Assembly: GCF_001610975.1 (NCBI RefSeq)
Contig: NZ_CP013342.1
Span: forward strand, 2,117,001 to 2,181,000
Origin: Sphingopyxis terrae subsp. terrae NBRC 15098
Lineage (GTDB): Bacteria > Pseudomonadota > Alphaproteobacteria > Sphingomonadales > Sphingomonadaceae
Length of the DNA: 64,000 nt
Reading direction: 5' to 3'
Position numbers and translations under genes: made by a program. Below, one piece after another: positions 7,082-63,383 of the stretch (the stretch's first letter is position 1; each line of letters opens with the position of its first letter). The notes beneath the pieces were generated by a model. It was given only the letters and a program-made list of their open reading frames with translations, searched no databases and had not been told where the DNA came from.

Positions 7082-9661
7082 TTATGTCGGCGTCAGGACA
7101 AGGCCGCCGTCGCCTTCGTCCACTTTGACCGTCGATCCGTCCTTGACTTCACCTTTCAGGATCAGGTCGGCGAGCGGGTCTTGCAGATATTTCTGCACCG
7201 CGCGCTTCAGCGGCCGCGCGCCGTAGACGGGATCGTAGCCTACCCGGCCGAGCCACGCGCGCGCGGCGTCGGTGAGGTCGAGCGTCACCTTGCGATCGTC
7301 GAGCAGTTTCTGGACGCGCGCGACCTGAATGTCGACAATGCCGCCCATATGCTGCTGCGCGAGGCGGTGGAACAGCACGATCTCGTCGAGCCGGTTCAGG
7401 AACTCGGGCCGGAAATGCGCGCGCACCACCTCCATCACCGCGGGTTCGGCCTGTTCGACCGGCGCGTCGTCGGGCAGCGACGCGATCGCCTGGCTGCCAA
7501 GGTTCGAGGTCAGGATGATCAGCGTGTTGGTGAAGTCGACCGTACGCCCCTGCCCATCGGTCAGCCGCCCGTCGTCGAGCACCTGCAAGAGGATGTTGAA
7601 CACGTCGCCATGCGCCTTTTCGACCTCGTCGAAGAGGACGACCTGATAGGGACGGCGGCGGACGGCTTCGGTCAGAACCCCGCCTTCCTCATAGCCGACA
7701 TAGCCCGGAGGCGCGCCGATCAGCCGCGACACGGCGTGCTTTTCCATGAATTCGGACATGTCGATGCGGACCATCGCATTGTCGTCGTCGAACAGGAACC
7801 GCGCGAGCGCCTTGGTGAGCTCGGTCTTGCCGACGCCCGTGGGGCCGAGGAAGAGGAACGAGCCCAAGGGCCGGTTCGGATCCTGTAGCCCCGCGCGGGC
7901 ACGGCGGACGGCGGTCGAGACGGCGCGCACGGCTTCGTCCTGACCGATGACGCGCTTGCCGAGCGTCTCCTCCATGCCGAGCAGCTTTTCGCGCTCGCCC
8001 TCCATCATCCGGTCGACCGGGATGCCGGTCCAGCGGCTGACCACTGCGGCGATGTCGTCGGCGGTGACTTCCTCGCGCAGCATCGCATTGCCCGCGGCGG
8101 CCTCTGCCTCCTCGAGCCGCTTTTCGAGCGCGGGGATCGTGCCGTAGCTGAGCTCGCCCGCACGGCCGAGGTCGCCCGCACGCTGCGCCTGTTCGAGCGC
8201 CGAGCGTGCAGCGTCGAGTTCTTCCTTGATCTTCGCCTCGGCGTGGATCTTGTCCTTTTCGGCCTGCCATTTCTGCGTCAGTTCGGCCGACTGCTGTTCA
8301 AGATTGGCAAGCTCGGCCTGCAGCGCGGTGAGCCGGTCTTTCGATGCCGCATCGGTCTCCTTGGTCAGCGCCGCTTCCTCGATCTTCATCTGGATGATGC
8401 GGCGGTCGAGATTTTCGATCTCCTCGGGCTTCGATTCGACCTCCATGCGGATGCGGCTCGCGGCTTCGTCCATCAGGTCGATCGCTTTGTCGGGCAGGAA
8501 GCGGTCAGAGATATAGCGGTTCGACAGCGTCGCCGCAGCGACGATCGCGCCGTCGGTGATGCGCACGCCGTGGTGCAGTTCGTATTTTTCCTTGAGCCCG
8601 CGCAGGATCGAGATCGAATCCTCGACCGTCGGTTCGCCGACGAACACCGGCTGGAAGCGCCGCTGAAGCGCGGGGTCTTTCTCGACATATTTGCGATATT
8701 CGTCGAGCGTCGTCGCGCCGATGCAGTGAAGTTCGCCGCGCGCGAGCGCCGGCTTCAAGAGGTTCGACGCGTCCATCGCGCCGTCGCCCTTGCCCGCGCC
8801 GACGAGCGTGTGCATCTCGTCGATGAACAGGATGATCTCGCCCTCGGCGGACTTCACCTCGTCGAGCACGCCCTTGAGTCGTTCTTCAAACTCGCCGCGA
8901 TATTTGGCGCCCGCGATCAGTGCGCCCATGTCGAGCGCAAGGAGGCGGCGGTCCTTCAGGCTGTCGGGTACGTCGCCATTGGCGATGCGCAGCGCCAACC
9001 CTTCCGCGATGGCGGTCTTGCCGACGCCCGGTTCGCCGATCAGCACGGGGTTGTTTTTGGTGCGGCGCGCGAGGATCTGCACGGTGCGGCGAATTTCCTC
9101 GTCGCGGCCGATCACGGGGTCGAGCTTGCCCGACCGCGCGACTTCGGTGAGGTCGCGCGCATATTTCTTGAGCGCTTCGAAACTGTCTTCGGCGCCCGCG
9201 CTGTCGGCGGTGCGGCCGCGGCGCAGTTCATTGATGACAGTGTTGAGCGCGTCGGCCTTCACGCCCGCGTCGGCGAATGCCTTGCCGACCGGAGTCGAGG
9301 AGGCGAGGACCATCGCGAGCAGCAGCCGTTCGACGGTGACATAGCCGTCGCCCGCCTTGGTCGCGACCTGTTCGGCCTGATCGAGCAGGCGCACCGCGTC
9401 ATTGTCGAGCCCCGGCGTCGCCTGCGCGCCCGATCCCGACACGGCGGGAACCTTGGCGAGCAGCGCGTCGATGCCGGCGACCGCGCGCGGCATGTCGCCG
9501 CCCGCCCGCTGGATCAGGCCCGCGGCCATGCCTTCATTGTCTTCGAGCAGCGCCTTGGCGATATGCTCGGGACTGATCCGCTGATGGTTCATGCGGATCG
9601 CGATCGTCTGCGCCGCCTGCAGAAAGCCCTTGGCGCGATCGGTAAATTTTTCGAGGTTCAT
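7082..9661 (-). CDS. clpB: ATP-dependent disaggregase ClpB
   Basis: An 859-residue Hsp100 chaperone that extracts and refolds aggregated proteins with DnaK. The start ATG at 9661 gives the usual N-terminus [15 protein letters not shown]. Visible parts are the Clp_N double repeat (1-150), the first AAA+ domain with Walker A GEPGVGKT, a long coiled-coil middle domain rich in Glu/Lys/Gln, and the second AAA+ domain with [10 protein letters not shown]-terminal Clp domain (D2-small) follows. Length matches the family (about 860). A heat-shock sigma-like promoter lies just upstream (9689-9716). It is convergent with the small exported-protein genes and divergent from the acylase gene. Confidence 0.98.
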
Positions 9662-59412: not shown

Positions 59413-60054
59413 ATGGATAGCGTAGGGGGGGCGCGGATCGCGGTCGAAAGGGCCGGTTTCGTATCCGTCGACTCCATCGAGGACCAGTTGCGCGAAATGC
59501 GCCGCGAACGCGATGCGTTGCGCCGTGAGAACCGCATCCTGAAGATCGCGGTCGCGGAGCTCGAACGCGTGTCCGAACGCGATACGCTGACCCCGCTGTT
59601 CAATCGCCGCTACTTCCTGACCGCGATTCACCAGCGCCTCGCGCGCTTCGAACGCCATGCCGAAAGCGCGGCGGTCGTGTTCATCGACGTCAATCAGCTC
59701 AAGCAGATCAACGACACGCTGGGGCATGCCGCCGGCGACTTCGCGCTCATGCAGATTGCGGGCCGCCTGTCGGCCTCGATCCGGTCGACCGATGTCGCAG
59801 CGCGGATCGGCGGTGACGAATTCGGGCTGATCCTCGATCAGTCGAGCGAAAAGGGCGCCCGCGCGCAGATCGAACGGCTGGCCGAGGTGCTGAGCGCCGA
59901 GCCCGCCAACTATGACGGGCAGGAGGTTCGCCTGTCGGCCTGCTTCGGCGTCGCGATGCTGCAGACCGGGATGAGCGAATCGGACGTGCTCGCCGCCGCC
60001 GACCGCGACATGTATCGCTGCAAACAGCGCGAAGTCGCCCGCACCCACCGCTAA
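59413..60054 (+). CDS. GGDEF-domain diguanylate cyclase with coiled-coil N-terminus
   Basis: A 213-residue soluble protein. Residues 20-55 form a coiled coil (EDQLREMRRERDALRRENRI). The GGDEF domain has the intact active loop RIGGDEFGLI, DVNQLKQINDTLGH and AADRDMYRCK. An RxxD inhibitory site (RSTD) sits five residues before the active loop, so cyclic di-GMP should feed back on it. The coiled coil should mediate dimerisation, needed for catalysis. GGGGATAGGG precedes the ATG. Confidence 0.94.
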   Translation: MDSVGGARIAVERAGFVSVDSIEDQLREMRRERDALRRENRILKIAVAELERVSERDTLTPLFNRRYFLTAIHQRLARFERHAESAAVVFIDVNQLKQINDTLGHAAGDFALMQIAGRLSASIRSTDVAARIGGDEFGLILDQSSEKGARAQIERLAEVLSAEPANYDGQEVRLSACFGVAMLQTGMSESDVLAAADRDMYRCKQREVARTHR

Positions 60055-60106
60055 CCCGGCGTTAACCAAAGGCGCGCATCCTCCCTTTATGGACAGGGGG
60101 TGGATG

Positions 60107-60436
60107 ATGCGTACCCAGGCCGATTTTTTCACCGATATCGAAAACCAGATTTCCGGGCAGATTGGCGCGCTTGCCGAAGCGCTCCCGCATTGTGCGTTGA
60201 CCCAGATCGTGCAGGGGGTCGACGACATTCGTTGCCTTGCGCGCGATCATGGCTTCGCGATCGTCGAAACGCTGGCGAGCCAGCTCGAATCGGCGGTGGC
60301 CGGGGGCGGCTATCGCGCCGCCGTCCTGACCTATCTCGACGCGATGAACGATGCGGTGCGCGCACCGCGCGGCCCGATGCCCGCGGCCGCGCAGGAAGCC
60401 TGGCTCGCGTCGGTCGCGATGCGCCTCGGCCATTAA
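60107..60436 (+). CDS. Uncharacterised small helical protein
   Basis: A 109-residue, mainly helical, soluble protein with one Cys in the PHCALTQIVQG region and another in RCLARDHG. It resembles four-helix-type small proteins such as Hpt, but no conserved His-Gly phosphotransfer motif is seen. The AGGGGGTGG stretch 6 bases upstream supports ATG 60107 over 60089 or 60104. It is 52 bases after the GGDEF gene on the same strand, so it may be co-transcribed with it. Function unknown. Confidence 0.75.
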   Translation: MRTQADFFTDIENQISGQIGALAEALPHCALTQIVQGVDDIRCLARDHGFAIVETLASQLESAVAGGGYRAAVLTYLDAMNDAVRAPRGPMPAAAQEAWLASVAMRLGH

Positions 60437-60467: not shown

Positions 60468-60779
60468 TTAATCCTCCACGCTCAATAATTCGACCCATAG
60501 GCCGCCTGGCTGCGCTTCGACCGCGACATCGGCGACGATGTGGCCGGCCAGCCGCCAGTCGAAGGCGGCGAGCCGCGCCGAAAGATCAGTGAGGGCGGTT
60601 CCGGCGGGCAGCGTCAGCGCAAACCGGTGGCGCGCTCCGATGAAATTGGCGCTGGCCCAAGGTCGCATCGTCGATGCGCCGAGCTGCGATCCCGGCGGCA
60701 GCAAGCGCGTCAGCAGGCGCGCGATGCGGCGGTGCGGGCAGGTGGGCCGCATGGGGGCGGTGTGCGACCAGCGGATCAT
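60468..60779 (-). CDS. Uncharacterised protein, second gene of the switch operon
   Basis: A 103-residue protein that I do not recognise. It contains a basic N-terminal half with CPHRRIARLLTRLLPPGSQ and a C-terminal beta-strand-like half ALTDLSARLAAFDWRLAGHI. It overlaps the 87-residue gene upstream by ATGA, so the two are translated together. It has no membrane segment. The operon is divergent from an S24 repressor, which probably controls it. A DNA- or RNA-binding role is possible from charge only. Confidence 0.65.
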   Translation of the reverse strand: MIRWSHTAPMRPTCPHRRIARLLTRLLPPGSQLGASTMRPWASANFIGARHRFALTLPAGTALTDLSARLAAFDWRLAGHIVADVAVEAQPGGLWVELLSVED

Positions 60780-61039
60780 GCGCGGCGGCTCTTGTTGGCG
60801 CGGCTGCCGACGCGGCGGTCGCCGATCGGCGTCACGCGGCCGGCCCGGAAGTCGGCACGCCATTTGTTCATGAAATGTTCCGCACGGCAGATCACCGCGC
60901 GGCCACAGATCCGCCCGCCGCGAAGGTCGCTCACCAGCCGCGGGTCGTGGACGGCGGCGCGGCCGAACACGCTCGGCGGCATATCGGCCTCTTTCAGAAA
61001 GGCCTCGATCCGTTCCAGCAAAATGCCCTGCATCGTCAT
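60776..61039 (-). CDS. Small HTH-like protein divergent from the S24 repressor
   Basis: An 87-residue basic protein. ILLERIEAFLKEADMPPSVF and GRAAVHDPRLVSDLRGGRIC fit the helix pattern of a small DNA-binding domain with a scaffold of the sphingomonad type FGRxAVxDPRxVxDLR, which I recall as a small conserved family. The tail is rich in Arg and Lys (RRVGSRANKSRRA). It could be the Cro-like partner of the repressor. ATG 61039 is used; an in-frame ATG at 61033 is possible. It overlaps the next gene by four bases. Confidence 0.75.
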   Translation of the reverse strand: MTMQGILLERIEAFLKEADMPPSVFGRAAVHDPRLVSDLRGGRICGRAVICRAEHFMNKWRADFRAGRVTPIGDRRVGSRANKSRRA

Positions 61040-61060
61040 CTCCCTGCCCGCGATTCGATC

Positions 61061-61135
61061 AATAGGATAATTCCTATTTGATTGGCATTTTCCTACTTGT
61101 CTAGGAAAAATCCTATTGCTAGAGATGAAATAGGA
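61061..61135. promoter_or_regulatory. Operator array with six TAGGA half-sites
   Basis: The gap between the divergent small operon and the repressor gene holds three dyads of one half-site. They are AATAGGATAATTCCTATT (61061-61078), TTTTCCTA-N6-TAGGAAAA (61088-61109) and TCCTATT-N11-AATAGGA (61111-61135). Both genes' promoters must lie here. The layout resembles the three-operator switch of lambda-like phages. The S24 repressor is the natural binder. Confidence 0.8.
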
Positions 61136-61146
61136 AGGACCAGTCC

Positions 61147-61818
61147 TTGACCGATATCGACGACGACCCGCGCCGGATGCTCGACCGGCTGCTGACCGAA
61201 AAGGGGGTGGATTATGCCCAGCTTTCGGCGCGCATCGGGCGCAACCCCGCCTATATCCAGCAATATATCAAGCGCGGATCGCCGCGGCGGTTGGGTGAAC
61301 AGGACCGGGCGCGCATCGCCGCCTATCTGGGCGTGTCGGAGGCGCTGCTGGGCGGCCCGGCGCTACGCGTCGCCGCGCCTACGCCGCGCGCGCGCGGCCG
61401 CGACCTCGTGCTGGTGCCAAAGCTGGCGATCGGCGCTTCCGCGGGGCCGGGCGCGAGCGTCGATGGCGAAGCTGTGGAAAGTGAGGTCGCCTTCGATCCG
61501 CGCTGGCTGCGCGATCTGGGCGCCGACCCGCGCGCGCTGAGCATCATTCGCGTCGAAGGCGATTCGATGGCGCCGACGCTGGGCGATGGCGACGATATAT
61601 TGGTCGATGGCGGCGACGCGGCCGCCCGGCTGCGCGACGGCATCTATGTGCTGCGGATGGACGATGTGCTGATGGTCAAACGCATCGCGCGCGCGCCGGG
61701 GCCGGGGCGCGTGTCGGTCATCAGCGACAATCCGCACTATCGTAGCTGGGACGATCTGCCGCTGTCGGCGATCCGGCTCGTCGGCCGGGTCATCTGGACG
61801 GGGCGCAGGGTGCGCTAG
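61147..61818 (+). CDS. HTH/S24 phage-type repressor
   Basis: A 223-residue protein of CI/LexA-like design. An N-terminal helix-turn-helix (RLLTEKGVDYAQLSARIGRN and YIQQYIKRGSPRRLGEQ) is followed by a linker with the likely autocleavage site in IGASAGPGASV, then a S24 peptidase domain. The Ser nucleophile is in VEGDSMAPTLGDGD and the Lys in VLMVKRI. The start is TTG 61147; AGGAAGGA lies 8-15 bases upstream. It should bind the operators at 61061-61135 and may self-cleave on RecA activation. Confidence 0.9.
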   Translation: MTDIDDDPRRMLDRLLTEKGVDYAQLSARIGRNPAYIQQYIKRGSPRRLGEQDRARIAAYLGVSEALLGGPALRVAAPTPRARGRDLVLVPKLAIGASAGPGASVDGEAVESEVAFDPRWLRDLGADPRALSIIRVEGDSMAPTLGDGDDILVDGGDAAARLRDGIYVLRMDDVLMVKRIARAPGPGRVSVISDNPHYRSWDDLPLSAIRLVGRVIWTGRRVR

Positions 61819-61865: not shown

Positions 61866-62420
61866 CTAGAGATAATTGACCGTCAGCGTGAAGGTGCCGC
61901 TGTAATCGCCCTCGGGCTGGTTCGCCGGGACGCTGAGCGTGCCGCCGACATAATAGGTTTGCACCCCGCTGGGCAGCAGCGTCGCGCTCGACCCGAGCAG
62001 GATAATGCCGCCGCCGCTTGTCGTCATCGCGCGGGTCAGCGTGGCGGTCATTGCGGGCGCGCCGCCGCCTGCGCGGGTCAGTGTCGCCGAATTGCTGCCG
62101 CTGACAGTGATCAGCAGCAGGCCGCCGGTACCCTGGAATACCCCGCGCTGCGCGCCGCTGCCGGCGAGCGTGACGCCGCCCGCCGAGCCGCGCGCATTGG
62201 TCGCCGGATTGACCGTCACCGTGCCCCCGGTCGCGCCGCTGACGATCGTGCCGAAATCGAGGTCGTCGGTCTTGATGAGCGTGTTCGGCCGCACCACCGC
62301 GGCATTCGCGGTGCCGGTCGTCTCGGCCGCCGATGCGGACGGCCCCATCAGCGCCGCTGCCGTGGCAGCGGCGGCGAGGCATAAGGCCATCGGTCGGAAG
62401 TTGGTCCCTTGAATCCCCAC
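61866..62420 (-). CDS. DUF4402 exported protein
   Basis: A 184-residue exported protein with a signal peptide ending near SASAAE (about residue 33). The mature part has DDLDFGTIVSG, and repeated Thr/Gly/Ala-rich strands ending QPEGDYSGTFTLTVNYL, the DUF4402 signature, related to spore-coat-U/fimbrial domain proteins. It may be secreted or surface-exposed. GTG 62420 is the preferred start because AGGAG lies 7-12 bases upstream, and it gives a full signal peptide. Function unknown. Its paralogue is at 62808-63383. Confidence 0.85.
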   Translation of the reverse strand: MGIQGTNFRPMALCLAAAATAAALMGPSASAAETTGTANAAVVRPNTLIKTDDLDFGTIVSGATGGTVTVNPATNARGSAGGVTLAGSGAQRGVFQGTGGLLLITVSGSNSATLTRAGGGAPAMTATLTRAMTTSGGGIILLGSSATLLPSGVQTYYVGGTLSVPANQPEGDYSGTFTLTVNYL

Positions 62421-62532
62421 GATTCTGCTCCTGTCCGGCACACTATGCCAGCAGGGCATGAAGGGAGGATGCGCAGGCATGGTAAAGCGGGTCTTTACCT
62501 TTGCGCGGAGGCGGTGCGTCAGGCCCCCGACT

Positions 62533-62807: not shown

Positions 62808-63383
62808 TTACAGATAGTTCAGCGTGATCGTGAAGGTGCCGCTGTAGTCGCCGGGCGCCTGATTGGCATTGACCTCCAGCGTCGCGCCGACTGGAAAATT
62901 ATAATTGCCCAGCGCCGAGGTGATGCGGAAGCGCGTCGGCGAGGTCGAGAGGATCGCGGTCGGGGTGCTGCCGATCTCGAAATCGCGCACGCGCATCCGC
63001 TGGCCGGGGCCGGTGATCCAGATGCTGTTCGAACCGAGCGAGATATTGACCTGGCGATTGTAGCTGCCGAGCCCGGCGAAGCGCGCCGGTTCGCCCGAAC
63101 TGCCCGCGAGCGTCGCGCCGCCGGTGCGGCTGCGCGTGCCGTCGGGGGCAAGCCGCACGGTGCCGGCGCTGCCCGAGGCGATGATGTCGCCGAAATCGAG
63201 GTCGTTGACCTTGAAGAAGGACAGCGGCCGCAGCACGATCGCTTCGGCCTGTGCCTGCGTCGTCGATTGCGGCGATGTGGTCTGGGCATGCGCCGCCGGT
63301 CCGATCGCCGGAGCCGTCAGCAGAGCGCACGCTGCGAAGCCGCGCAGTATGGCGCGCGGGTCGATGATGTGTCTGGTCCTCAC
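62808..63383 (-). CDS. DUF4402 exported protein, second copy
   Basis: A 191-residue exported protein like the one at 61866. A signal peptide ends near AAHAQ (about residue 33). The mature part has VNDLDFGDIIASG, and ends QAPGDYSGTFTITLNYL, close to the end of the first copy. GTG 63383 is used with GGGGGG upstream. The two copies differ widely in the middle (residue identity looks low apart from the ends), so the duplication is old. Function unknown. Confidence 0.85.
   Translation of the reverse strand: MRTRHIIDPRAILRGFAACALLTAPAIGPAAHAQTTSPQSTTQAQAEAIVLRPLSFFKVNDLDFGDIIASGSAGTVRLAPDGTRSRTGGATLAGSSGEPARFAGLGSYNRQVNISLGSNSIWITGPGQRMRVRDFEIGSTPTAILSTSPTRFRITSALGNYNFPVGATLEVNANQAPGDYSGTFTITLNYL

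Follow-up and report, generated by a model that had tools for sequence, protein, structure and literature searches.

We found that the 64,000-nucleotide stretch of the Sphingopyxis terrae chromosome analysed here (hereafter the window) probably contains a DNA-damage-coupled two-state switch of the CI/Cro type, which is owned by the host and forms a standing chromosomal module of the Sphingomonadaceae; this reading is drawn from sequence comparison and structure prediction. The CI/Cro logic is familiar, unlike the standing chromosomal role, the box embedded in a coding sequence, the unnamed putative effector and the hot zone for phage insertion. The module consists of rep and a divergent two-gene operon, h87-u103, whose genes overlap by 4 bp (ATGA). 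This arrangement had been recognised in an earlier sequence-only reading, which described an HTH/S24 repressor facing genes for 87 and 103 residues, and it was borne out at the coordinates listed in Table 1. The module is flanked by host genes, both in the window and in relatives. In its neighbourhood, a 115-aa ORF without a family match lies upstream of the module (60089-60436), beside a GGDEF protein (59413-60054), and two secreted-looking DUF4402-type proteins are encoded in tandem downstream of the repressor gene (61866-62480 and 62808-63383). The first of these, the sole member of the pair that was scanned, showed a DUF4402-type match with an E-value of 2.1e-21.

Table 1. Features of the rep-h87-u103 module, in positions of the window.
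Feature	Position	Strand	Description
rep	61147-61818	+	Rep, S24/CI-like repressor, 223 aa, TTG start, N-terminal HTH
Cleavage-type site	61441-61446	+	Ala99-Gly100 of Rep
Catalytic serine	61564-61566	+	Ser140 of Rep
Catalytic lysine	61678-61680	+	Lys178 of Rep
h87	60776-61039	-	87-aa predicted Cro/CI-type HTH protein; divergent partner of rep, first gene of operon
u103	60468-60779	-	103-aa conserved protein, ATG start; second gene of operon
Candidate operator dyad 1	61063-61076		TAGGATAATTCCTA; TAGGAN4TCCTA; conserved in genus
Inverted half-site pair	61091-61106		TCCTACTTGTCTAGGA; TCCTAN6TAGGA; best-conserved intergenic part, near-invariant in 30-species alignment
Candidate operator dyad 2	61102-61115		TAGGAAAAATCCTA; TAGGAN4TCCTA; second half-site lost in about half of species
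Lone half-site	61131-61135	+	TAGGA just upstream of rep; conserved in GAAATAGGAAGGACC
SOS/LexA-type box	60866-60880		GTTCATGAAATGTTC; inside h87 (codons for EHFMN), about 87 bp upstream of u103 start
Equivalent of Mu-like cluster I	61004-61015		Early h87 codons (about 6-9 in relatives); empty in window; junctions of G002, 3300038555, 3300037834, G313
Equivalent of Mu-like cluster II	60797-60831		3' end of h87, 35-69 bp beyond box; empty in window; junctions of G442, 3300024044, 3300035002, 3300045412

Rep matched the Pfam family Peptidase_S24 (PF00717, E 4.7e-16) and a PHROG for a phage transcriptional repressor (E 2.3e-40). Its N-terminus was matched weakly by HTH_31/HTH_3-type models and was not matched by LexA_DNA_bind (PF01726). 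The closest named phage repressors were the D3112/DMS3-type c repressors of Mu-like phages, with an identity of about 33%, and a search of the accessible literature found nothing on an S24 repressor in Sphingopyxis. The likely autocleavage site proposed earlier held up as a sequence feature. In particular, the Ala-Gly pair and the two catalytic residues are all in place; the Ser, the Lys and the Ala of the cleavage pair were invariant in 112 of 112 distinct Rep homologs, and the Gly was retained in 111. Because these cleavage and catalytic residues are kept in the homologs, self-cleavage of Rep is plausible.

The gap between rep and h87 contains six TAGGA half-sites, three on the forward strand (61063, 61102 and 61131) and three on the reverse strand (61072, 61091 and 61111). 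As TAGGA occurs only 19 times in the full window, where 26 copies would be expected, the presence of six copies within 73 bp of this gap is far beyond chance. The sequence-only reading had grouped them into three dyads, which is only approximate: two true TAGGAN4TCCTA dyads are present, the half-sites at 61091 and 61102 form a reversed pair, and the one at 61131 is unpaired. The spacing of five of the six half-sites was kept in nearly all of 30 Sphingopyxis loci, and the remaining one, at 61111, is lost in about half of them. Additionally, at least two TAGGA half-sites were found upstream of rep homologs in 44 of 51 regions from other genera. A search of the whole 3.98-Mb genome for exact TAGGAN4TCCTA dyads, beyond which looser sites could exist elsewhere, returned two copies, both in the module gap. 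Since the exact dyads are confined to the module, the circuit looks dedicated.

GTTCN7GTTC is the LexA box of alphaproteobacteria, and in the S. terrae genome it stands upstream of uvrA and of an imuB-like gene. The copy inside h87 was perfect in 65 of 68 distinct h87 genes, and its codon choice was frozen: CAT was used in 68/68 genes (background 53%) and GAA in 65/68 (background 52%), while the neighbouring codons varied. The box was intragenic in 50 of 55 Sphingopyxis loci, and no GTTCN7GTTC was found between rep and h87 in the loci of this genus. Among 39 loci from other genera, it was intergenic in 8 and intragenic on the same strand in 8, and 20-23 had no perfect box in the stretch searched; none of the listed loci carried both forms. 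A perfect intergenic box was present in 17 of 51 non-Sphingopyxis intergenic regions, a set that includes paralogs and phage-bearing loci, compared with 0.7% in base shuffles and 0.028 per 240 bp over all loci. As the sequences are related, these counts are not independent, and the motif can also arise by chance: the genome holds 51+41 sites, against 34+31 for a reversed control. An SOS-type box lies in the control region of the operon, within h87 in the window and between the genes in other genera, and we infer that LexA binds it.

H87 and U103 showed no meaningful match in Pfam, NCBIfam or PHROGs, and a sequence search of solved structures returned no match for either protein. The AlphaFold2 model of H87 (pLDDT 83) predicted a Cro/CI/POU-type HTH fold and matched HTH folds, and the earlier description of this protein as HTH-like stands as a prediction. 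U103 was predicted to adopt an alpha-beta-beta-alpha-beta-beta fold (AlphaFold2, pLDDT 87). Its best VIA match was a monocin cap, with a Z-score of 8.6 and an rmsd of 2.6 over 93 residues, and other structure matches included a GTA virion protein (Z-score of 8.2) and many phage neck and tail-terminator proteins. Tail terminators were the largest coherent group in the structure search, yet AlaX-M and FtsK tied with them in Z-score. The Pfam model Tail_completion_gp17 touched just 2 of 35 U103 members, and weakly (E 0.034); a BFVD structure search returned nothing at E<0.001. The resemblance of the U103 model to phage tail terminators is a lead and not a membership, and U103 is called a putative effector by default.

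Presence in relatives, which had been put forward as a check together with the sequence-only reading, was extensive. Rep was found at E<1e-100 in 73 of 80 Sphingopyxis genomes, h87 was present in 34 of 35 same-genus genomes, and a u103 homolog occurred in 241 of 299 family genomes and in 84 of 96 genera; these counts were taken over related species without correction for relatedness and are not independent. The MuA of Mu-like phages was found in just 2 of the 80 Sphingopyxis genomes, both times at the module. The module is mostly single-copy. With minor exceptions, 30 Sphingopyxis loci had the same layout of the three genes, the same ATGA overlap and at least four or five of the half-sites in place, and the identity to the proteins of the window was 78-86% for Rep, 64-79% for H87 and 49-59% for U103. 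About 35 Sphingopyxis share one locus for the module, with galU/lipoprotein genes on one side and surface-polysaccharide genes on the other; in S. terrae, including the window, it is located at a different position. Because nearly every genome of the genus and many across the family carry the module, with conserved synteny and operators, on this comparative evidence it is a standing chromosomal host module of the Sphingomonadaceae and not a prophage remnant.

Further S24 homologs were observed in these genomes. In S. terrae, a second rep-h87-type pair (G000:C1:3955000-3974000, L164; rep2 at 8601-9242 and h87' at 8279-8515) adjoins genes for BrxC (E 0), BrxF, a WYL regulator and a relaxase/helicase-like protein; this is a BREX-type island, which may be part of a conjugative element. 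The paralog of the relative G002 (L166) adjoins DrmD and a WYL gene, and an SOS-type box was present in the gap of both paralog pairs. A third, shorter S24 homolog (G000:C1:3828888-3829424, L165) lies about 11 kb from a GafZ-type DUF6456 gene; within the genus, it was seen only in the S. terrae genome and in G035.

From these features, we propose the following mechanism. In growing cells, Rep would occupy five or six TAGGA half-sites, repress h87-u103 and limit its own synthesis, as the layout suggests. DNA damage would act through two inputs. Activated RecA would trigger self-cleavage of Rep at its Ala-Gly site, to which the intact conserved residues point, and LexA would leave the GTTCN7GTTC box, which many genera carry between the two genes and Sphingopyxis carries within h87. 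H87, which is Cro-like in its predicted HTH fold, would feed back on the same region, and U103 would act as a putative effector. The sequence-only reading had offered a domesticated stress switch as one of its two options; this option is supported by the conservation of the module, by cleavage residues that are all intact and by an SOS-type box whose DNA sequence itself is conserved, and in it binding and induction are the conjectural steps.

We compared the module with known systems. Like lambda CI/Cro and the c repressors of the Mu-like phages D3112/DMS3, it contains a repressor that combines an HTH with an S24 domain (PF00717) and the Ser, Lys and Ala-Gly residues of self-cleavage, a divergent small Cro/Ner-like gene, HTH by prediction, and several intergenic half-sites. 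The likeness to lambda drawn earlier is therefore sound for logic and layout, but it does not extend to phage membership: the module is not part of a phage or prophage genome, as host genes flank it and it is near-universal in the genus, where it occupies a conserved host locus. In addition, its dyads are 14 bp long whereas lambda operators are 17 bp, its operon carries an SOS-type box, and u103 has no counterpart. The perfect GTTCN7GTTC box in the operon is shared with the LexA/SOS regulon of alphaproteobacteria. In contrast to LexA, Rep lacks the LexA DNA-binding match and has its own operator motif, and the module would be a second layer of control.

Mu-like prophages were found within the operon in several relatives. 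The h87 gene of G002 is interrupted by a Mu-like prophage (rve, Mu-transpos_C, Portal_Mu and Phage_Mu_F), which is bordered by a 5-bp duplication, ATCGA; further clean 5-bp target duplications at the module were CAGCG, AACGG, TCGAG and CCGGA. The prophages occur in both orientations. All 14 junctions that were read fall within one zone of ~300 bp, which runs from the h87 start to roughly codon 15 of the following gene, and Rep and the operators are intact beside the insertions. No MuA match was found in the S. terrae genome. Among 299 family genomes, MuA was found in five, at the module in G002, G313 and G085 and off the module in G332 and G158, the junctions of the last not being found. In the viral contigs that include the module, it is located at the contig ends. 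Viral contigs were also scanned independently for MuA, which gave eight records with at least 66% identity; seven were the same module-bearing contigs and the eighth was a fragment. More distant phages showed no insertion at the module, and no known phages were close to L155. Prophage genes beside the module in relatives, which the sequence-only reading had named as evidence against itself, do occur, but as later insertions into an existing module, because 5-bp target duplications flank the inserted phages.

The G002 prophage (L161-L163) has a layout unusual for a Mu-like phage: the capsid, tail and lysis genes run leftward and the transposase, terminase and portal genes run rightward, diverging from the middle. 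Its Mu-type portal is fused to an anti-CBASS Acb1 domain (L162:15627-17666; Portal_Mu E 4.2e-96, Acb1 E 1.7e-35). Exact TAGGAN4TCCTA dyads were absent from this phage itself. A Mu-like phage that lacks its own repressor and borrows Rep was ruled out, as a central S24 homolog was present in every record except G471, a fragment with a host-type S24 copy alone.

Mu itself integrates nearly at random. At the module, ten junctions have a box on their Rep side, at a distance of 35-69 bp, and three junctions lie 66-75 bp beyond the Rep dyad. The distance to the box may be incidental because the box and the insertion zone share a small region. It is conceivable, if doubtful, that some sphingomonad Mu-like phages pick their lysogenic site through a regulatory complex bound at the switch, at 35-69 bp beyond the box or 66-84 bp beyond the dyad; the operator would then be an attachment landmark, and lysogeny would disable the output. 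Insertion guided by the SOS box was not supported as a general rule: no box lay within 95 bp of the junction in G332 (target duplication CTGAA) or in the flanks of the distant phages G465, G469 and G470. The hot spots of the Pseudomonas phage Ab30 lie 55-61 bp from a repeat motif (PMC5977238). A study of the Citromicrobium phage phiA, a sphingomonad Mu-like phage that also has a 5-bp target duplication and a tight hot zone, reports that in each of the 24 strains examined it had integrated within a single 40-bp zone of a hypothetical gene, as it did even in new laboratory lysogens (PMC12486242). The phiA target is described there as a hypothetical gene, and it is not equated here with an h87 homolog.

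Alternatively, the module could be an anti-phage or abortive system, in which damage or infection would release Rep and LexA, u103 (with h87) would harm the cell or the phage, and Mu-like prophages would persist because their insertion silences the module. Since all 14 junctions fall in the zone given above, the operon is cut each time and Rep survives, which this alternative would explain, and the paralogous rep2-h87' pair, which adjoins BREX genes in S. terrae and DrmD in G002, is in keeping with it. However, none of the 14 junctions lies in the body of u103, although silencing alone would allow insertions there. The junctions are grouped in a few narrow spots, a pattern suggestive of targeting, and the reported preference of phiA for one host-gene zone even in new lysogens (PMC12486242) argues in the same direction. 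We consider an anti-phage role unlikely.

It is very unlikely that the module is a GTA regulator, the sphingomonad counterpart of Caulobacter RogA-gafYZ, in which Rep would keep a pair of small activators of the GTA genes repressed. RogA, a repressor of the S24 type, controls a two-gene activator operon (PMC9632790), so that both systems place a two-gene operon under a chromosomal S24-type repressor conserved in alphaproteobacteria, and a GTA virion protein is among the structure matches of U103. In contrast, RogA lacks the catalytic residues (PMC9632790) that are invariant in 112 Rep homologs. GafZ is a DUF6456 protein; no DUF6456 match was found in h87 or u103, and a GafZ-type DUF6456 is encoded elsewhere in the genome (C1:3817137-3817522). 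The retained Ser and Lys of Rep and the separate location of DUF6456 rule out membership in the RogA-gafYZ system.

A prophage remnant, the other option of the sequence-only reading, would be the immunity region of a decayed phage persisting by chance in the strain, and it is highly improbable: a CI-like repressor with a Cro-like partner, the Mu-like affinity of Rep and the Mu-like genes that adjoin the module in relatives would suit it, but the module is mostly single-copy, it occurs in almost every Sphingopyxis and in the greater part of the family, its operator is conserved and most Sphingopyxis have it at the same syntenic locus; the phages within it are bordered by 5-bp target duplications and encode a central S24 repressor of their own. 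A recent remnant is ruled out by the conservation, the synteny and the target duplications, and the module may have an ancient phage origin that predates the family.

For the host-owned switch, a sharp prediction follows from the box within the coding sequence of h87, and one synonymous mutant would suffice to address it. The repeated Mu-like insertions provide a concrete host gene in which to approach the single-spot integration of some transposable phages. A switch that is kept across most of a large family and has an unnamed effector would add an unrecognised branch to the sphingomonad SOS response.
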